DNA from: Marinobacter persicus
GTDB lineage: Bacteria > Pseudomonadota > Gammaproteobacteria > Pseudomonadales > Oleiphilaceae
DNA: 64,000 bases
NCBI RefSeq assembly: GCF_002934325.1
Contig: NZ_PTIV01000010.1
Span: forward strand, 43,310-107,309
Reading direction: 5' to 3'
Shown here: positions 6,834 to 41,506 of the stretch, one piece after another
How positions within the stretch are numbered: the first letter of the stretch is position 1
How the letters are laid out: every line of letters starts with the position of its first letter
The notes under the pieces: model-generated
Databases searched by the model: none
The model's input: the letters and a program-made list of their open reading frames with translations, nothing else
What the model was told of the DNA's origin: nothing
Translations under genes and position numbers: made by a program

Positions 6834-9800
6834 CAGTGAATAACCGCCTCCGGCGTCTGGTGCATGGTCGCCTGGGCAAGATCCAACAGCTCCCGCAAGG
6901 CCACGGAGAACATCGCGTACTCAGGTTCACGCACGCCTTTGAGTTCAGCCAGCATGCTGTTCCAGCGCTCAATCATCGACTGGTACTTCTGCTCCCAAAG
7001 CTGAACACTTTCCGGAATGTTCTCGGCCTTCTCGGCACTAATCAGCACACCGGTTGTAAGGGCACGCTGCTGCCACTCCAGGTCTTCCCGGAAGCTCTCA
7101 CGCGCCAGGGCCTGCCAGTGGGAACTCGGCTGAAGGTTGGCGATGGCCTCGCCAAACCAGTTCAGGTCAAGGCGGTCTCCCAGGTCGTAATAGAGGTTGG
7201 CCACGGATTTCAGAGGCATACCGGTTGTTTCCTGGGCCTCGATGATGCCCAGGGAAGAATACAGGTAACCGGTGCCAGCCAGTACCGAGGCCAGGTCCTT
7301 CGGAATGCCCGCTTCGGCAAGTTCATCGTGGCGGCTCTCCCAGCTGGCCCGGGCCTGGTCCCCAAGGTACTCCGGCAGGCCGGAAGTAATGGCCCAGACA
7401 CCGTCGGCAAAGCGCTCAATGTGACTCTGGATGTTCAGTTCTGCCCGACGGTTGCGCAACAGCCAGCGCACGGCACGGCGAATCAGGCGCATCAGGTTCT
7501 GCATCAACTCCAGCTGCAGCTTGGCGGAGACGTGATAATCCAGGGATTCGATCTTGTCCCACCAGCTGTCCAGACGGAACACATCCCGGGCGATGATCCA
7601 CGCCAGCGCGATGGACGGTGCATCGGCGCCCGTAGACTGGTTCAGCCGCTCCACAAAGGTGATACCCATGTGATTCACCATATCGTTGGCGATCTGGGTG
7701 GCGATGATTTCCCGGCGCAGCTGGTGCTCACCCAGCTCCTTCGAGAACTTCTGGTTCAGGGCCTGGGGGAACACTTTGTACATTTCACCGGCCAGCAGCG
7801 GATCGTCCGGCAGGTTGCTGTCGATCAGTGTCTGCTTCAGGTCACCTTTGACGTAGGAAATCAGCACCGACAGCTCCGGCCGGGTCAGCCCCTTGTTGGC
7901 CAGCTTGCGCTCGCTCAAGGTTTCATCGTCCGGCAGGAATTCCAGGCTCCGGTTCAGTTTGCCCTCGCTTTCCAGGGTATTCATCAGGCGCCGGTATTCC
8001 TCCAGCCGGGTAGAGGTATCTGCACTGGCGATACTCAGGGCCTGGGTCTGGCGATAGTTATTCTTCAACACCAGGGCCGCGACGTCATCGGTCATTTCCT
8101 CCAGCATGACGTTACGCTGCTTGCCGGTCAGGTCGCCCATGGCCACTGCCCGGTTGAGCAGGATCTTCATGTTGACTTCGTGGTCCGAGCAATCCACACC
8201 GCCGGAGTTGTCGATGAAATCGGTATTCAGGCGGCCACCCTTGAGGGCATATTCAATGCGCCCCAGCTGGGTAATCCCCAGGTTGCCACCTTCGCCAACG
8301 ACCTTGCAGCGCAGTTCCTTGCCATTGATGCGCAGGGCATCGTTGGCCTTGTCGCCGACATCCGCGTGGCTTTCATCGCTACCCTTCACGTAAGTGCCGA
8401 TGCCACCTACCCAGAGCAGGTCCACCTGGGCCTTGAGGATATGGCCAATCAACATGTTCGGCGGAACCCGGTCGGCCTTGATGCCCAGCAGCTTTTTCAT
8501 TTCTGGACTGACCGGAATGGATTTGGCGCTGCGGCTGAACACGCCACCACCCTTGGAAATCAACTTGGGATCGTAGTCGGTCCAGGCGGAGCGTGGCATC
8601 TCGAACAGGCGCTTGCGCTCCTTGTAGCTCTTCTCGGCATCCGGTTCGGGATCGACAAAGATGTGAACATGGTTGAAGGCCGCCACCAGGCGGGTCTTCT
8701 CGGAGGACAACAGGCCATTGCCGAACACGTCACCGCCCATATCACCAATACCAATGGCGGTGAACTCGTCCACGGCCGGGTTAATACCCATTTCCCGGAA
8801 ATGCCGCTCGACAGACACCCAGGCACCGCGGGCGGTAATGCCCATTTTCTTGTGGTCATAGCCGTTGGAGCCGCCGGAGGCAAAGGCATCGCCCATCCAG
8901 AAGCCATACTCGGCGGCCAGACCATTCGCGATATCGGAGAAAGTCGCCGTGCCTTTGTCGGCAGCCACTACCAGATAGTGGTCGTCTTCATCCTGGCGCA
9001 CGACTTTCTCCGGTGGCTGAATACCACCGTCCACCAGGTTATCGGTGATGTCCAGCAGACCCCGGATAAATGTCTTGTAGGCAGAGATACCCTCGGCCTG
9101 GAAGGCCTCCCGGTCGGAGGGATCGGGCAGCTGCTTGGCCACGAACCCGCCTTTGGCGCCAACCGGCACAATGACGGCGTTTTTGACCTGCTGGGCTTTC
9201 ACCAGGCCCAGGATTTCAGTGCGGTAGTCCTCGAAGCGATCGGACCAGCGCAGACCACCCCGGGCAACTTTGCCGCCCCGCAGGTGCACACCTTCCACCC
9301 GGGGGGAGTAGACAAAGATCTCGTACGCCGGCAATGGCAGCGGCACATCAGGAATCCGTGTCGGATCGAACTTCACACTGATGTAGGGTTTGGGCTGCCC
9401 GTCAGCATCCGGCTGGTAATAGTTGGTTCTCAGGGTCGCCTGCATCAGTTCCAGGTACAGGCGCAACACGCGGTCTTCGCTGAGATTCTCGACCTCATCC
9501 AGACCGGCGTTAAATTCGATTTCCAGCTTCTGCTGGGCGGCCTCGCTCTTCGCCCGGCTCTGGAAGCGATCCGGATTGAAGCGGGTATCAAAGTACTCCA
9601 GCAACGTGCGGGTCAGGTTAACGTGGTTAACCAGCGTGTTGGAGATAAAGGTCTGACTGTTGGAGATGCGAATCTGGCGCATGTAACGGGCGTAGGTACG
9701 CAACAGGGCAATCTCACGCCAGCTCATGTAGGACGACAACAGCAGACGGTTAAAGGCGTCACTCTCTGCTTCGCCATACCAGACCTTGCGGAACAGGTCC

Positions 9801-11716
9801 TCAAAGATCGGCCGGACACGATGAATGTCCACCACCGCGCCAGTCTCGGTCTGCAGGGTGAAATCGTGAATCCAGACAATCTTGCCGCCGTGGTCACGCA
9901 CCTCGAAGGGGTGTTCCCCCAGTACGCGGAAGCCCAGGTTGTCGAAAATCGGCATGACATCGGACAGCGGCAGCGGCTCATCCGGATAGAAGAGTTTGAA
10001 ATGCAGAATGCTTTCATCCTCTTCCAGGGCCCGGTAAAAGCTCATGGCCAGATCGTCATTGCTCGCTGAACTGGAGATATGGTCCAGGTCGATCGCGGCA
10101 CGCCGGGCCGAGAACATGTCTTTGTAGCTGGCCGGGAAACCACCACCCCAGATCCGGTACAGCTCATTGCCCTGCTCTTCGCCATAGGCTTCGCTCAGGG
10201 CTTCGCTCAAGCCATCCCGCCAGGATTGTGCGAGCTCGATCACCCGGTTACGAATCTTGGTGACCGGCACCTCGCGGTTCTCCATCTGGGGCACGCGGAT
10301 GGTGAACTGGACGCGGGCCAGCACCGATTCCGAGAAATGGGTGACAAATTCAATGTCTTCCGCTTCCAGCTCCTCAATCAACACCCGCTCAACTTTCAGG
10401 CGCAATTCCGTGTTGTAGATATCCCGGGGGAAGAACGCCAGGCAGGTGACAAACTGGCCGTAGACATCTTCCCGCATGAACAGCTCGATGCGCCGACGCT
10501 CCTGGATGTAGAGGATGCTCTTGGCCACCTTGAGCAGTTCGTTGGACTCAATCTGGAACAACTCATCCCGGGGATACAGGGTCAGGATCTGTTCCAGTTC
10601 ACGACCGGCGTAGTCGTCCGCCAGGAAACCGGAACGCTCCATGACCGCCCGGGATTTACGGCGCAGCAAGGGGATCTCGACGGGCCGCTCGTTGTAGACC
10701 CGGGCGGTATAAAGGCCCAGGAACCGGCGCTCACCCACAACCTCGCCTTTGCTGTCGAATTTTTTCACCGCGATGTAATCGGGGTAAGCCGGACGGTGAA
10801 CCCGCGAGCGCTGGGCCGATTTCGCGAAGATGAAGACATCATCGGTACGCGTCATCTCATGCCGTGTGCGCTGGGGCAGCTCATTCAGGCGCACCTTGTC
10901 AGAGCGCTCGTTGTTCACTCGCAGGATACCCAACTCTGAATTGTCGACCCGGCGCACTTCCATGCCATTCTTGTCTGACACGAAATCGTATTCGTCATAG
11001 CCCAGGAAGGTGAAATGATCGTCCGCCATCCACTTCAGAAACGCCTGGGCTTCTTCGCGGTCGTCTTTGGAGATACCGGCCGTGGTGCCCTCCAGTTCCT
11101 TGCAGATCTCCCGGACACGATCCTGCATGACACCGAAATCGCCCACCGCGATCCGCACTTCATGCAGAACGGCCTGAAGTTCTTCCTCCAGTGAGCGTAA
11201 GTCCTTGGGATCGCTGTGACGGTCAATCTCAAGAACAATAAACGCTTCAAAGCCGGCTCGTTCAGAGGCTTTCTTCGCAGGGTTGGGATACAGCTTTTTC
11301 AGCTTGCCACCGGTGTCCCGTTCAACCTGGAAAATGGAATGTTGCAGTGAATGCGTACCGATGTCCCGGCGATTGATCGCCATCCGCAGGGAATCGATCA
11401 GAAACGGCATGTTCGGATGCAAAATGAAGATGACCGTGTGGGTGGACTGCCAACCGTCACTTTCCAGTTCCGGATTGAAAACGGCCACCGGCGTTTCTTC
11501 GGCATCGCGCTTCTGAAGGAACTGCCAGGCCGCCAGGACTGCACCGTAAGTATCTGAAAAACGGCGACTGACCAGTTCTTCCAGTGGAATATGGGCGTAA
11601 TGCTGACGGGCAAACTCAGTGACCTTTTTCGCCTCGGTCTTGGGAAGCTTGTCCGTGAACGCATCAGCCAGTTGTTCGAAAAACTGTTCCTTGCTGGCGA
11701 TAGTCAGCGCATTCAT
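6833..11716 (-). CDS. gdhB: NAD-specific glutamate dehydrogenase, large (180 kDa) type
   Basis: A 1627-residue enzyme of the GdhB/GDH2 family that oxidises glutamate to 2-oxoglutarate and ammonium with NAD+. The length is typical of the L_180 class. The long N-terminal half carries the regulatory ACT-like region; the catalytic core is recognised by [61 protein letters not shown] and [20 protein letters not shown]. In Pseudomonas the enzyme is used in arginine and glutamate catabolism. The gene is the first of a two-gene unit with rsmC, and its upstream region also serves the divergent moxR operon. Confidence 0.93.
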
Positions 11717-27461: not shown

Positions 27462-28561
27462 TGAATCAGTGAGCGTAGTGCCCAGGCCTGCTGCCAGTGG
27501 GCTGATTTGCGCGGTGCCACGGCGGTCTCAAAATAATGCTTCAGGCGCCGCCGGTCTTCCGGCTCATCCTTTAACGCCGAACCAATCAGGTGATGCATCA
27601 GGTGTTCGACCGTCATGATGCCATCGCCGTAATACCAGGCATTGAGGCTGGCGGCATGGGCCACCGACACCGCCTCCGCGGTGGACAGGGCCGAGCCCGC
27701 CAGACGATCAGTGCTTCGCCCATCCAGGGTCTGGCCGTTGCGAAGTTCGTGAAACATGGTCACCAACACTTCCACCACCGGCTCTTCCAGCGCCACCTCA
27801 ACACCAGCCTGCCGGTTGGCTTTAGCCACCTCGCGGTGAACCACTTCAACCTCATCCGCCAGATTACGAATTGGCCGAATTTCCTCAAAATCCATCCGGC
27901 GTTTGAGCGCGGCACTCATGGTGTGGACACCGGTATCCACGCTGTTGGAGGTGGCAACTAGATTGAAGCCTTCACGGGCCAGGATGACACCGTCATCGCC
28001 GCCAAGCTCCGGAATAACCACCACGCGGTCCGACAGCACAGACAGCATGGCGTCCTGCAAGGCCTGGGGACAACGGGCTATTTCCTCAAAACGCACCAGA
28101 CGCCCTTCCATCATGCCCCGCAACAATGGCGTGGGGATCAGCGCCCGACGGGTTGGTCCTTCGGCGCGCAGCAATGCCTCATTCCAGCTGTACAGCATCT
28201 GGCTGACCTGGCTAATGGCTCCGCCCTGCAGGGTCAGGGTGGAATTGGCGGAAACCGCAGCCGCCAGCAGTTCCGAGAGCCAGGACTTGGCGGTTCCCGG
28301 CGGGCCAACCAACAAGCAGCCCCGGTTGGTACACAGGGAGATGACGATTCGGGTAATCAAGGCCCGATCCGCCACAAATTTGCGCTCAATGCCCAGCTTC
28401 TCGTCGCCGCAGAGAAACTTCTCGACCGAGCGGGGCGACATCTGCCAGCCCGGCGGCACCGGCCCGGAATCCTGAGCCACCAGCCGGTCGAGCTCGTCCC
28501 GATACACCACTTCGGCGGGCTGGCGCTGCACCCCATTCGCCGGCTTGTCTTCGCGTTTCAT
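27458..28561 (-). CDS. Orphan MoxR-like AAA ATPase
   Basis: A 367-residue AAA ATPase: Walker A GPPGTAKS (residues 86-93), Walker B RLVRFEEIARCP (155-165), sensor 1 FNLVATSNSVDTG (199-211), arginine finger in ALKRRMDFEEI (218-227), and a C-terminal lid with RSTDRLAGSALSTAEAVSVAH and DGIMTVEHLMHHLIGSALKDEPED. The long WNEALLRAEGPTRRALIPTPLLRGM insert resembles the MoxR subgroup that in other bacteria travels with VWA, SWIM and DUF5682 genes; none of these is adjacent. Its ATG overlaps the stop of the methyltransferase-ATPase fusion gene (ATGA), so the two are made together. Substrate and pathway are unknown. Confidence 0.8.
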   Translation of the reverse strand: MKREDKPANGVQRQPAEVVYRDELDRLVAQDSGPVPPGWQMSPRSVEKFLCGDEKLGIERKFVADRALITRIVISLCTNRGCLLVGPPGTAKSWLSELLAAAVSANSTLTLQGGAISQVSQMLYSWNEALLRAEGPTRRALIPTPLLRGMMEGRLVRFEEIARCPQALQDAMLSVLSDRVVVIPELGGDDGVILAREGFNLVATSNSVDTGVHTMSAALKRRMDFEEIRPIRNLADEVEVVHREVAKANRQAGVEVALEEPVVEVLVTMFHELRNGQTLDGRSTDRLAGSALSTAEAVSVAHAASLNAWYYGDGIMTVEHLMHHLIGSALKDEPEDRRRLKHYFETAVAPRKSAHWQQAWALRSLIH

Positions 28562-30837
28562 GGGTTACTCCTCCGGCCACCGCGTATTTCCGGCGCCATG
28601 CGTTCCCGGGGCAGAATGCGCGGCAGTTCCGATAAGGGGATAATGCCTTCAATCACGTGGTCCAGGGCGCTGTCACGCATGGTCACCAGCCCGGCATCCA
28701 GCGCCCGCCAGCGAAGTTCACCGATGGGGGGCTGGCTGGAAATGGTGTTACGAATATCCGTGTCTACCTCCATGTATTCCACAATGGCAATCCGCCCCTG
28801 CGTGCCTCGACCATTGCATTTATCGCAGCCCTCGCCCTCATAACAGGTAAAGCCCACCGGGGGCCCGTCCGGGAACACTTCCGACAGGATGACCGGATCG
28901 GGCTTGGCCGGCTTGCGGCAGTGCGTGCAGATGCGCTTGGCGAGACGCTGGGCAATCACCGCCAGCAGTTCGCCGGCGATGGAATTCGGGTGAATGCCCA
29001 GATCATAGAGACGCTGCAGGGAATCAACCGCATCGTTACAGTGCAGCGTTGAGAGCACCACGTGGCCGGTCTGCGAGGCGCGAATGGCTTCCAGGGCGGT
29101 CTCCTGGTCACGAATCTCCCCGATCAGGATCACGTCAGGGTCTTCCCGCACAAACGCCCGCATGGCGTCGGCGAAGCTGAAGCCGATCTCCGAGCGCACT
29201 CGGGTCTGCTGGATATTGTCGATGGAATACTCAATGGGATCTTCCACAGTAATCACTTTTCGGCGACCATCGTCCGCCAGGGTCTGAAGCCCGGCGTAAA
29301 GCGTGGTGGATTTGCCGGAACCGGTTGGCCCTACCACCAGCACCAGTCCCGCCGGGTTATCCAGCAGCCGCTGGTAACGGACACCGACCACCGGAGACAT
29401 GCCCAGTTCGGCAATGGTCATGGCCCGACCGGTCTGGGGCAACAGGCGGATAATGGCGTTCTCACCATGGAGAGAAGGCTGAGTCTGGATGCGCAGATCG
29501 TAAGTGGCATCGCCCAGCTGCAATCGGGAACGACCACCCTGGGGCAGCCGGTGCTCGGCAATGTTCAACTCCGCGCGCAATTTGATGACGTTGATCACGC
29601 CACGGATTTCCCGGGCCGACAGCTGGTATTGCGGCAACTCGTGAAGGTCGCCGTCCACCCGCAGGCGGATGCGTACCCGATCCTCATACTGTTCAATGTG
29701 GATGTCACTGGCCTTCTCGCTAACGGCATCCAGCAGGATCGCCTCGTAAACCGAAACCAGGTAGGGGCTGATATGCTTGTTGATCTCCTTACCCAAAAGA
29801 TCTTTGCCGTTTTCGCCTTTGTCCGGAGAAGGCTGGAGGCCGGCATTCTGCTCGGCAACGAAACGGCTCCCTTTCACCGTCAGGTCCAGGGCCGACCAGA
29901 TCCTGCGAAAATCGGTCGGCGTTACCAGCAGGCAGACAATCCGGTGCTTGGGAGTGAGCCTTTCCAGTTGATCTGTGCGGACATCGGGATCGTCGGTAAC
30001 GACCGTCATCGAGCCATCTTCTTCCGCCACGGGAATCGTCCGTGAAAGGTCGAGAAACGTTCGGGAAAAACGCCTGAAGAGATCGGAATTGAGGTGATTG
30101 AGAACATCATCGGCTTCAGCAAAAACCAGGCCCCGCTGCTCAGCCAGGGACCGGTAGAGATCGATTTCCTCGAGATTTAGCGAGCGCCGAAGCACATCCA
30201 GAACACGCTCATTGCGGCTGGAGGCCTCAGCGCGGGCCTTGTCCAGCTCACTGTCGTTGACCAGACCCAGGTCAATCAGGATCTGTTCCGAATTGCGATT
30301 AAAGTCCACCCAGCCCAGAGTCCGGCAACGCTCCAGCTTGTCACCGTCCCGCCGGTACATTGCAACGCTGGGTACCGGCCCTGCCCGCCCCTCCAGGCAG
30401 ACCAGGTGGCCACCTTCCCGCAGGTTGGCGGTCAGGACTTTCACATTGGGCAGAAAGGTGGTGCACAGCACCCAATCGCAGGGTTCGTCCGTGCTCACCC
30501 CTTTATCGGCCGAGGCCTGGATTACGTCGATATTATGCAACCCGCGCCTGAAGAAGCGTTCACGAGCCGTATCGGCAAGCACGGGGTTACGGTCCACGTA
30601 AATCACACGGTGAGCCAACTGTGACAGTACGGCAGTCAGGTAGCCGGAGCCGCCGCCCACGTGCATCACCACCTGGTCGGGCTCAATCTCGGGCATCAGG
30701 CCCAGCAGATGGTGGACGGTTTCCTGGCGGGGAATGGAGTGGCCGGTAATGGAAGGTGCCAGGTCGGCGCCGGCCACGAAGTCATGACGGAAGACACTGT
30801 TGAGGGCTGCTTCGGCCCTCGGATAAATCGGTTTCAT
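28558..30837 (-). CDS. Fusion: PCMT-like methyltransferase, MshEN-like domain and GspE/PilB-type ATPase
   Basis: A 759-residue protein in three parts. Residues ~5-178 resemble protein-L-isoaspartate methyltransferase: SAM loop VMHVGGGSGYLTAVL (57-71), YVDRNPVLADTARERFFRRGLHNI-type region, DWVLCTTFLPNV (121-131) and LREGGHLVCLEG (139-150); but the Ser of the catalytic ISQP block appears as Pro (SIPRQ, 34-38). Residues ~183-320 look like a GspE N-terminal/MshEN domain (ILIDLGLVNDSELDKARAEA). Residues ~355-750 form a complete secretion/pilus ATPase: Walker A GPTGSGKST (503-511), EDPIEY, Walker B DVILIGEIRD (568-577), His box TGHVVLSTLH and zinc cysteines 637, 640, 671, 674. No pilin, platform or secretin gene is near. 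Function unknown. Confidence 0.85.
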   Translation of the reverse strand: MKPIYPRAEAALNSVFRHDFVAGADLAPSITGHSIPRQETVHHLLGLMPEIEPDQVVMHVGGGSGYLTAVLSQLAHRVIYVDRNPVLADTARERFFRRGLHNIDVIQASADKGVSTDEPCDWVLCTTFLPNVKVLTANLREGGHLVCLEGRAGPVPSVAMYRRDGDKLERCRTLGWVDFNRNSEQILIDLGLVNDSELDKARAEASSRNERVLDVLRRSLNLEEIDLYRSLAEQRGLVFAEADDVLNHLNSDLFRRFSRTFLDLSRTIPVAEEDGSMTVVTDDPDVRTDQLERLTPKHRIVCLLVTPTDFRRIWSALDLTVKGSRFVAEQNAGLQPSPDKGENGKDLLGKEINKHISPYLVSVYEAILLDAVSEKASDIHIEQYEDRVRIRLRVDGDLHELPQYQLSAREIRGVINVIKLRAELNIAEHRLPQGGRSRLQLGDATYDLRIQTQPSLHGENAIIRLLPQTGRAMTIAELGMSPVVGVRYQRLLDNPAGLVLVVGPTGSGKSTTLYAGLQTLADDGRRKVITVEDPIEYSIDNIQQTRVRSEIGFSFADAMRAFVREDPDVILIGEIRDQETALEAIRASQTGHVVLSTLHCNDAVDSLQRLYDLGIHPNSIAGELLAVIAQRLAKRICTHCRKPAKPDPVILSEVFPDGPPVGFTCYEGEGCDKCNGRGTQGRIAIVEYMEVDTDIRNTISSQPPIGELRWRALDAGLVTMRDSALDHVIEGIIPLSELPRILPRERMAPEIRGGRRSNP

Positions 30838-40693: not shown

Positions 40694-41506
40694 TCAGGCT
40701 TCGATCAGCCGCTCCACAAAAAATTCCAGATGCCCCCGAGGTGTCGTCGGCAGGGGCCAGTTGTCCACTTTCTGCGCCAGCGTGCGAATAGCCGACGATG
40801 CACGCGCCCTCGGATAAGCCTCCAGAAAGGCTTTCTGGCGCTGGACCGCTTTTTTCACGGCCTCATCATAAGGCACTATGCCGACGTATTGTAGCGCCAC
40901 ATCCAGAAACCTTTCGGTGACTCGGGTCAGTTTATCAAACAGCACCCGCCCTTCCTGGTCGTTACGAACCTGATTGGCCACGATACGGAAACGGTTGGTG
41001 CCGTAGTCACGATTCATCAGTTTGATCAACGCGTAACAGTCGGTGATTGAGGTGGGCTCGTCGCAGACAACCAGAAGCACCTCCTGGGACGCCCGCAGGA
41101 AACTGACCACGGATTCAGAGATACCGGCGGCTGTATCGACAATCAGAACGTCAATCTGGTCCCCCAGCTCGCTGAACGCGTTGATCAATCCCGCATGCTC
41201 CATCGCACTCAACTGCGTCATGCGTTGGGTGCCGGAGGAAGCCGGCACAATTTTGATGCCACCTGGCCCGTTGACCAGAACGTCCTTAAGGTCGCACTCG
41301 CCATTGAGCACGTCCTGAAGGTTGCGCTTGGCCTTGATCCCCAACAGCACGTCAATGTTGGCCAGACCGAGATCCGCATCCAGAATCACGACTCTCCTAC
41401 CCTTTTCGGCCAGCGCAATACCCAGATTGACTGACACGTTGCTTTTCCCGACGCCGCCTTTGCCGCCGGAAACCGCGATTACCTGAACCGGATGTGGTCT
41501 GCTCAT
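40694..41506 (-). CDS. fleN: Flagellar number regulator FleN (FlhG)
   Basis: A 270-residue MinD-like ATPase with SGGKGGVGKSNVSVNLG at residues 14-30, VVILDADLGLANIDVLLG and DVLIVDTAAGISESVVSFL. FleN binds the master regulator FleQ and limits flagella to one per cell together with FlhF. It sits between flhF and fliA exactly as in Pseudomonas. The fleQ gene is not in the window. Confidence 0.93.
   Translation of the reverse strand: MSRPHPVQVIAVSGGKGGVGKSNVSVNLGIALAEKGRRVVILDADLGLANIDVLLGIKAKRNLQDVLNGECDLKDVLVNGPGGIKIVPASSGTQRMTQLSAMEHAGLINAFSELGDQIDVLIVDTAAGISESVVSFLRASQEVLLVVCDEPTSITDCYALIKLMNRDYGTNRFRIVANQVRNDQEGRVLFDKLTRVTERFLDVALQYVGIVPYDEAVKKAVQRQKAFLEAYPRARASSAIRTLAQKVDNWPLPTTPRGHLEFFVERLIEA

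Follow-up and report, generated by a model that had tools for sequence, protein, structure and literature searches.

The 64,000-nt stretch of Marinobacter persicus DNA analysed here (contig NZ_PTIV01000010.1, hereafter the window) carries a fusion gene, FUS, whose product joins a head derived from the protein-repair methyltransferase PIMT to an MshEN module and a secretion/pilus ATPase of the T2SSE family. FUS is tentatively read as an extra extension motor with a dead PIMT head which, together with the MoxR-type ATPase encoded directly after it, might drive or prime a pilus or secretion platform shared with another motor.

A motor with a PIMT-derived head

The FUS reading frame begins with an ATG at position 30837 and ends with a stop codon closing at 28558, giving 759 codons with zero internal stops. 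Three Pfam domains score above their gathering cut-offs, namely PCMT (residues 39-147, E 1e-12), MshEN (250-317, E 4.5e-10) and T2SSE (361-738, E 1.1e-108, 363.7 bits against a cut-off of 24.9); for the MshEN fold the Pfam profile is the only source, as residues 181-319 are barely covered otherwise. The three-domain fusion that the first-pass annotation had proposed from the sequence of the window is thus borne out with its exact coordinates, and residues 1-180 do contain the methyltransferase match it predicted.

The same annotation had considered that a sequencing error or frameshift might have joined two genes. This is practically excluded, because full-length matches occur in 20 of the 37 Marinobacter genomes searched and in many other taxa, the fused architecture extending as far as Myxococcota. 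Nineteen of these 20 copies are free of stops; the other, from M. flavimaris (G009), has an in-frame TAG at codon 115, within the head, and in M. flavimaris LMG 23834 (loci L009 and L088) the frame is open apart from this codon. Nothing in the window copy favours an artefact, and the one arrangement that recalls it lies on a myxococcal contig (L184), on which a 181-aa PCMT-like frame (7784-8329, E 5.4e-25) is found just upstream of a 645-aa MshEN-T2SSE frame (8347-10284). These frames may be separate genes, a split gene or the result of a frameshift. P0076, an 846-aa fusion/MoxR chimera, was left out of the analysis; it looks like a product of recombination or of assembly.

Protein searches yielded a set of 91 proteins, followed by a set of 14 more distant T2SSE fusions and 16 PCMT-esterase fusions together with the query. 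In an alignment with E. coli Pcm, for which every sixth of 79 close homologues was taken, the proline at residue 36 of FUS falls on the catalytic Ser59, confirming the Ser-to-Pro replacement noted in the first pass. The equivalent position is Pro in all 28 gammaproteobacterial rows, in which the Gln next to it is lost as well, and in 55 of 81 distant fused proteins, with Ser in a single one whose alignment is doubtful (P0093, which has Pro, is in neither group). Position 36 is also Pro in each of the 80 close full-length homologues, window copy included. As a control, PCMT proteins fused to an erythromycin-esterase-like domain (P0108-P0123) keep the Ser in 15 of 16 cases. An apparent catalytic-loop pattern in P0127 was dismissed, as it sits elsewhere in the head of that protein, away from the catalytic site.

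According to PMC11522691, mutating the catalytic Ser of Drosophila PIMT abolishes its activity. On the two NCBIfam PIMT equivalog models, FUS reaches 56 and 73.7 bits against cut-offs of 159.05 and 188, compared with 331.1 and 323 bits for E. coli Pcm as a positive control. Unlike Pcm, the FUS head lacks both the catalytic Ser and the following Gln and stays below these cut-offs; it is a PIMT fold without catalytic serine, a former protein-repair methyltransferase. An inactive PIMT has reportedly been described before, by Yin and Harwood in 2019.

At the S-adenosylmethionine (SAM) site, every one of the 28 gammaproteobacterial rows retains the three glycines of motif I, as do 80, 78 and 81 of the 81 distant rows at the respective positions. 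The ribose-binding acid is present (D or E) in 80/80 close homologues, 28/28 gammaproteobacterial rows and 77/81 distant rows. The motif I Glu is replaced by His in Marinobacter (HVGGGSGY in the window copy). The adenine-side GDG motif of PIMT is lost in the Marinobacter-type rows (D in 3 of 15), so that SAM binding may be weak or absent in this genus; the acid of this loop is retained as D or E in 13/13 of the remaining gammaproteobacterial rows. Conservation across the close homologues (n=80) is higher at the 18 head positions of the catalytic loop and SAM site (0.90) than at the other 152 (0.72; permutation, approximately 3e-4). For seven close pairs, the ratio of nonsynonymous to synonymous substitution rates (dN/dS) of the head is 0.04-0.11, indicating purifying selection on it.

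Secretion and pilus motors read cyclic di-GMP (c-di-GMP) via MshEN. A pattern for the two RLG-type c-di-GMP motifs, made for this analysis after the published consensus, was found in 0/80 close homologues, which suggests that c-di-GMP reading, if ancestral, has probably been lost in FUS of this group. Both motifs were found in 8 of the 81 distant fusions and in 14 of 43 unfused relatives. The eight fusions (P0100, P0125, P0173, P0193, P0194, P0210, P0215 and P0234) have the two patterns beside a dead PIMT head, suggesting that a two-signal motor may be ancestral.

Walker A, Walker B, the His box and the zinc cysteines, described as intact in the first-pass annotation, are so throughout the family: their key residues are invariant over 78 diverse fused proteins, with position 510 varying. 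Together with the Pfam score, this places FUS in the T2SSE superfamily. FUS scores below the cut-offs of the PilB model TIGR02538 (399 bits against 675.65), the GspE model TIGR02533 (404 against 630.25) and the TfpB model NF053534 (341.4 against 850, with no positive control for TfpB); the motor is intact but fits none of the known types. The PilB (849.6 bits) and GspE (709.2 bits) of this genome pass their respective models; its MshE-like motor passes neither, with 571.3 bits on the PilB model.

In a rapidly built tree of 137 motor domains, which included few PilB references and came with a long-branch warning, 77 fused and 43 unfused relatives fall into one clade (support of 100 in the Shimodaira-Hasegawa-like approximate likelihood ratio test, stem 1.19), separate from the PilB, GspE, MshE-like, PilT and PilU motors of this genome and from HofB and GspE of E. 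coli. The unfused rows come from the best 120 of 7999 matches, fused and unfused, of a search seeded with one fused motor, and P0105, which has no Walker A match, was skipped. The tree mixes fused with unfused rows (7 label changes), so it does not separate gain of the head from its loss. Judged by its sequence, the FUS motor is an intact extension-type ATPase and a distinct class of type IV filament motor. It differs from the type IVa pilus extension ATPases PilB and TfpB not only in its scores but also in its PIMT head, degenerate c-di-GMP motif and MoxR partner, and no pilus genes adjoin it among the neighbours read from 19.7 to 46 kb of the window; from the genome's own PilB it is set apart by its clade as well.

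Table 1. Positions of FUS, its functional elements and the adjoining moxR gene in the window
Feature	Position	Strand	Remark
FUS, fusion gene, 759 aa: PIMT-derived head, MshEN module, T2SSE motor	28558..30837	minus	
PIMT-fold head, residues 1-180	30298..30837	minus	
GHSIP loop, residues 32-36, with Pro36 at the position of the catalytic Ser in PIMT (TISQP)	30730..30744	minus	alignment with E. coli Pcm
SAM-binding motif I HVGGGSGY, residues 59-66	30640..30663	minus	G61, G63 and G65 invariant in 78 diverse fusions
MshEN module with degenerate c-di-GMP motif, residues 181-330	29848..30297	minus	Pfam
Extension-type secretion/pilus ATPase, residues 358-745	28603..29766	minus	
Walker A GPTGSGKS, residues 503-510	29308..29331	minus	
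Zinc tetracysteine C637, C640, C671, C674	28816..28929	minus	invariant in 78 diverse fusions
MoxR-type AAA_5 ATPase, 367 aa	27458..28561	minus	near-constant neighbour of the fusion

The MoxR partner and the spread of the pair

The moxR gene, absent from the first-pass annotation, overlaps FUS by 4 bases (ATGA). Its product matches Pfam AAA_5 (E 1.1e-26), and NorQ and CbbQ2 are its closest folds. A scan of named genome contigs returned 76 FUS loci, of which 45 are labelled Marinobacter and the remainder belong mainly to Wenzhouxiangella, Alishewanella, Rheinheimera, Alkalimonas and Halopseudomonas, plus one Myxococcales bin; these loci share strains with those of the 37-genome search. MoxR lies directly after FUS in 20/20 fusion-bearing loci of the genus search and follows it in 75/76 named loci, the Myxococcales locus being the sole exception. 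FUS and moxR form a two-gene cassette in gammaproteobacteria. The distances of the two proteins are correlated (0.96 over 71 loci; 0.93 in a 31-locus subset with six Marinobacter-labelled loci), but this correlation is uncontrolled and was not counted as evidence.

Outside the genus the fusion is sparse. Genomes from other families of the order gave 0/21 full-length matches, and at E 1e-100 only 1 of 368 other genomes of the class was positive, with two candidates scored per genome. Among 235 genomes from the phylum to which the Myxococcales bin belongs, 17 contain relatives, with 18 matches in total: eight extend into the head and ten start at residue 136 or later, some of them at contig edges. 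A MoxR homologue was present in only 1 of the 17 regions around these relatives, several contigs ending nearby and the neighbours being grouped by similarity with no Pfam annotation; this suggests that MoxR was probably not part of the ancestral design. Databases already hold domain annotation of such fused proteins. A literature search, judged on titles and abstract openings, found no publication describing the FUS family.

NorQ and CbbQ pair with the VWA-domain proteins NorD and CbbO, a pairing that is usual, though not universal, for the MoxR class. In contrast to these AAA+ systems, MoxR is here constantly paired with the motor itself, and in the window no VWA gene was seen next to the two. 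Among 22 clustered loci, no third neighbour gene recurs in more than four (most neighbours being without Pfam annotation). A FUS-specific CoxE-type VWA partner elsewhere in the genome was rejected, since such genes occur in 59/61 genus genomes, with or without FUS. Distant MoxR relatives in L147 and L148 (43 and 40% identity) lie in gene clusters with DUF5682, accompanied in L148 by VWA_CoxE and DUF5691 and in L147 by a DUF4132/HEAT protein. GGDEF-EAL proteins are encoded near the pair in 4 of the 22 clustered loci (L119, L124, L138 and L145), in varying place and strand; as the GGDEF-EAL family is large, this proximity may be due to chance.

The chemotaxis-flagellar gene block

In 38 of the 45 Marinobacter-labelled loci, FUS lies within a chemotaxis-flagellar gene block, and the first-pass annotation had suggested a soluble motor with a possible link to the flagellar or chemotaxis genes nearby. 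The cassette is inserted in this operon only in Marinobacter; in other genera the pair lies at different sites. Sixteen of the 17 Marinobacter genomes without the fusion were retrieved. In 15 of them DUF2802 and the flhB-like gene are adjacent, and in the sixteenth the contig ends at this point; the seventeenth genome is 62% complete and had no DUF2802 match.

Six genomes that carry the pair have no FlhA, namely G002, which has a contig matching L139, and those of L076, L089, L092, L100 and L106. In a set of 108 Marinobacter genomes with a completeness of 95% or more, seven are without FlhA and six of these carry FUS. On a FUS tree of 46 rows, built without L088 (in-frame stop) and the FlhA-less genomes G060 and G725, the six named FlhA-less loci need three changes, i.e. 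they sit on three branches; over 200 bootstrap trees the 5-95% range of changes is 3-3, and none has one change. Nor do these copies change faster. Median identities to the window copy in the six FlhA-less loci versus the other loci above 70% are 67.8 and 67.8% for the head (n=38), 89.9 and 91.3% for the motor (n=39) and 79.8 and 78.2% for MoxR (n=39), in a comparison set made up of the partial locus L144 and 38 flagellar-flanked Marinobacter loci, defined by these flanks and not by FlhA. The link to flagellar or chemotaxis genes was thus not borne out and is very improbable, being as good as ruled out by retention of FUS in FlhA-less genomes on three branches, the absence of faster change and the non-flagellar sites in other genera.

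The six FlhA-less loci have a fleN-like gene directly upstream of FUS and ccmA downstream of moxR, and an upp-like gene precedes the fleN-like/FUS region in the three of them that were read (L076, L089 and L100). The fleN-like gene is also present in all six FUS-bearing FlhA-less genomes from the 108-genome set. In the window it corresponds to a MinD-type ATPase gene at 40694-41506 (minus strand), whose product we call FleN-like from the position of the gene, and it is kept upstream of FUS in L076, L089, L092, L100, L106 and L139. Identity of its product to the window copy is 70-76% in FlhA-less loci versus 87-91% in 11 flagellated genomes, as if the protein had a new or reduced role in the former.

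A possible shared platform and the role of the head

This genome has four extension-type motors and three GspF/PilC-type platform genes, the latter on other contigs than FUS. GspE, the MshE-like motor and PilB each adjoin their own platform gene, and FUS is most likely an orphan extra motor with no platform of its own. In agreement with the first pass, there is no dedicated machine beside FUS in the interval read. A dedicated extra platform protein was rejected, as platform-domain counts are alike in fusion-bearing (mean 6.35, n=20) and fusion-less (mean 5.65, n=17) genus genomes whose FUS status is known (p 0.33); T2SSF proteins are present in 18/18 fusion-bearing genomes examined. A role in anti-phage defence was also rejected: only shared-domain matches were obtained, the best being mad2 (E 1.6e-14) in the methyltransferase part, with none for MoxR.

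Six FUS subunits would form the usual hexameric ring, with six heads above it. Since no dedicated platform accompanies FUS, this ring might dock on a shared PilC or, failing that, on GspF. Such sharing has a precedent in Acinetobacter baylyi, where TfpB, an additional extension motor, works on the same pilus as PilB (PMC11656802). It is unlikely that FUS powers type II secretion through GspF and not a pilus through PilC. Its nearly equal NCBIfam scores for GspE and PilB would allow it, but the PilB-model match spans the MshEN region (185-740) and the GspE-model match starts only at 361; moreover, the genome's own GspE has a GSPE_N1E domain, which is not among the FUS matches. As for the remaining parts, the head would no longer repair isoaspartate and might be a SAM-responsive regulator or a purely docking module, and the MoxR ATPase, as a NorQ/CbbQ relative, might remodel or load the motor, perhaps via the head, much as other MoxR ATPases act on their targets. 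Platform choice, SAM binding and MoxR contact are what we infer here.

Some observations weigh against a SAM-reading, MoxR-assisted motor on a shared platform. A single genus copy out of 20 has the in-frame stop in its head, Marinobacter has lost the GDG motif, and a MoxR homologue was seen in only one of the myxococcal regions. Phylogenetic profiling picks no platform, because the genus has platform genes with and without FUS, and the pair could be conserved for a function that has nothing to do with pili.

Another possibility might be that the head is purely structural, docking without SAM binding and leaving regulation to MoxR alone. A precedent is described in PMC11522691 for complex I of Paracoccus denitrificans: a PIMT regarded as catalytically inactive (CI-PIMT, 8qby chain t) serves there as a docking subunit, having lost substrate and cofactor residues but docking on a machine all the same. 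The lost GDG loop and the Glu-to-His change in Marinobacter heads point in the same direction. CI-PIMT is, however, a separate subunit with obstructed cofactor binding (same paper), whereas the FUS head is fused and keeps motif I. The invariance of the motif I glycines in 78 diverse fusions and the near-universal ribose acid exceed the needs of a docking role, which makes a purely structural head rather doubtful, if still worth considering.

The same retained SAM motifs, with the nearly invariant loop around Pro36, would suit a head that is still an active methyltransferase but acts on a different target, for example a pilin, a platform protein or the motor itself. This is improbable given the replacement of the repair Ser by Pro and the loss of the following Gln in every gammaproteobacterial row, the missing GDG motif in Marinobacter and the lack of a recurrent substrate gene beside the pair in the 22 clustered loci. 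The shared-platform motor with a dead head can also be extended to a methyl-donor-gated one, in which the dead PIMT would read SAM and, in gammaproteobacteria, replace the VWA adaptor by which MoxR holds its target. The machine would then have two rings, one ATPase loading or resetting the other as SAM supply dictates; this is speculative and has a small chance of being correct.

What is new here is a methyltransferase-derived head on a pilus/secretion motor, in addition to MshEN and, in gammaproteobacteria, together with a MoxR ATPase. Marinobacter lineages without flagella provide natural controls, and the two genes could easily be deleted together. If the reading is true, a pilus or secretion motor would be under the control of SAM or of an AAA+ activase, and FUS would offer a tangible example for studying why bacteria maintain multiple extension motors.

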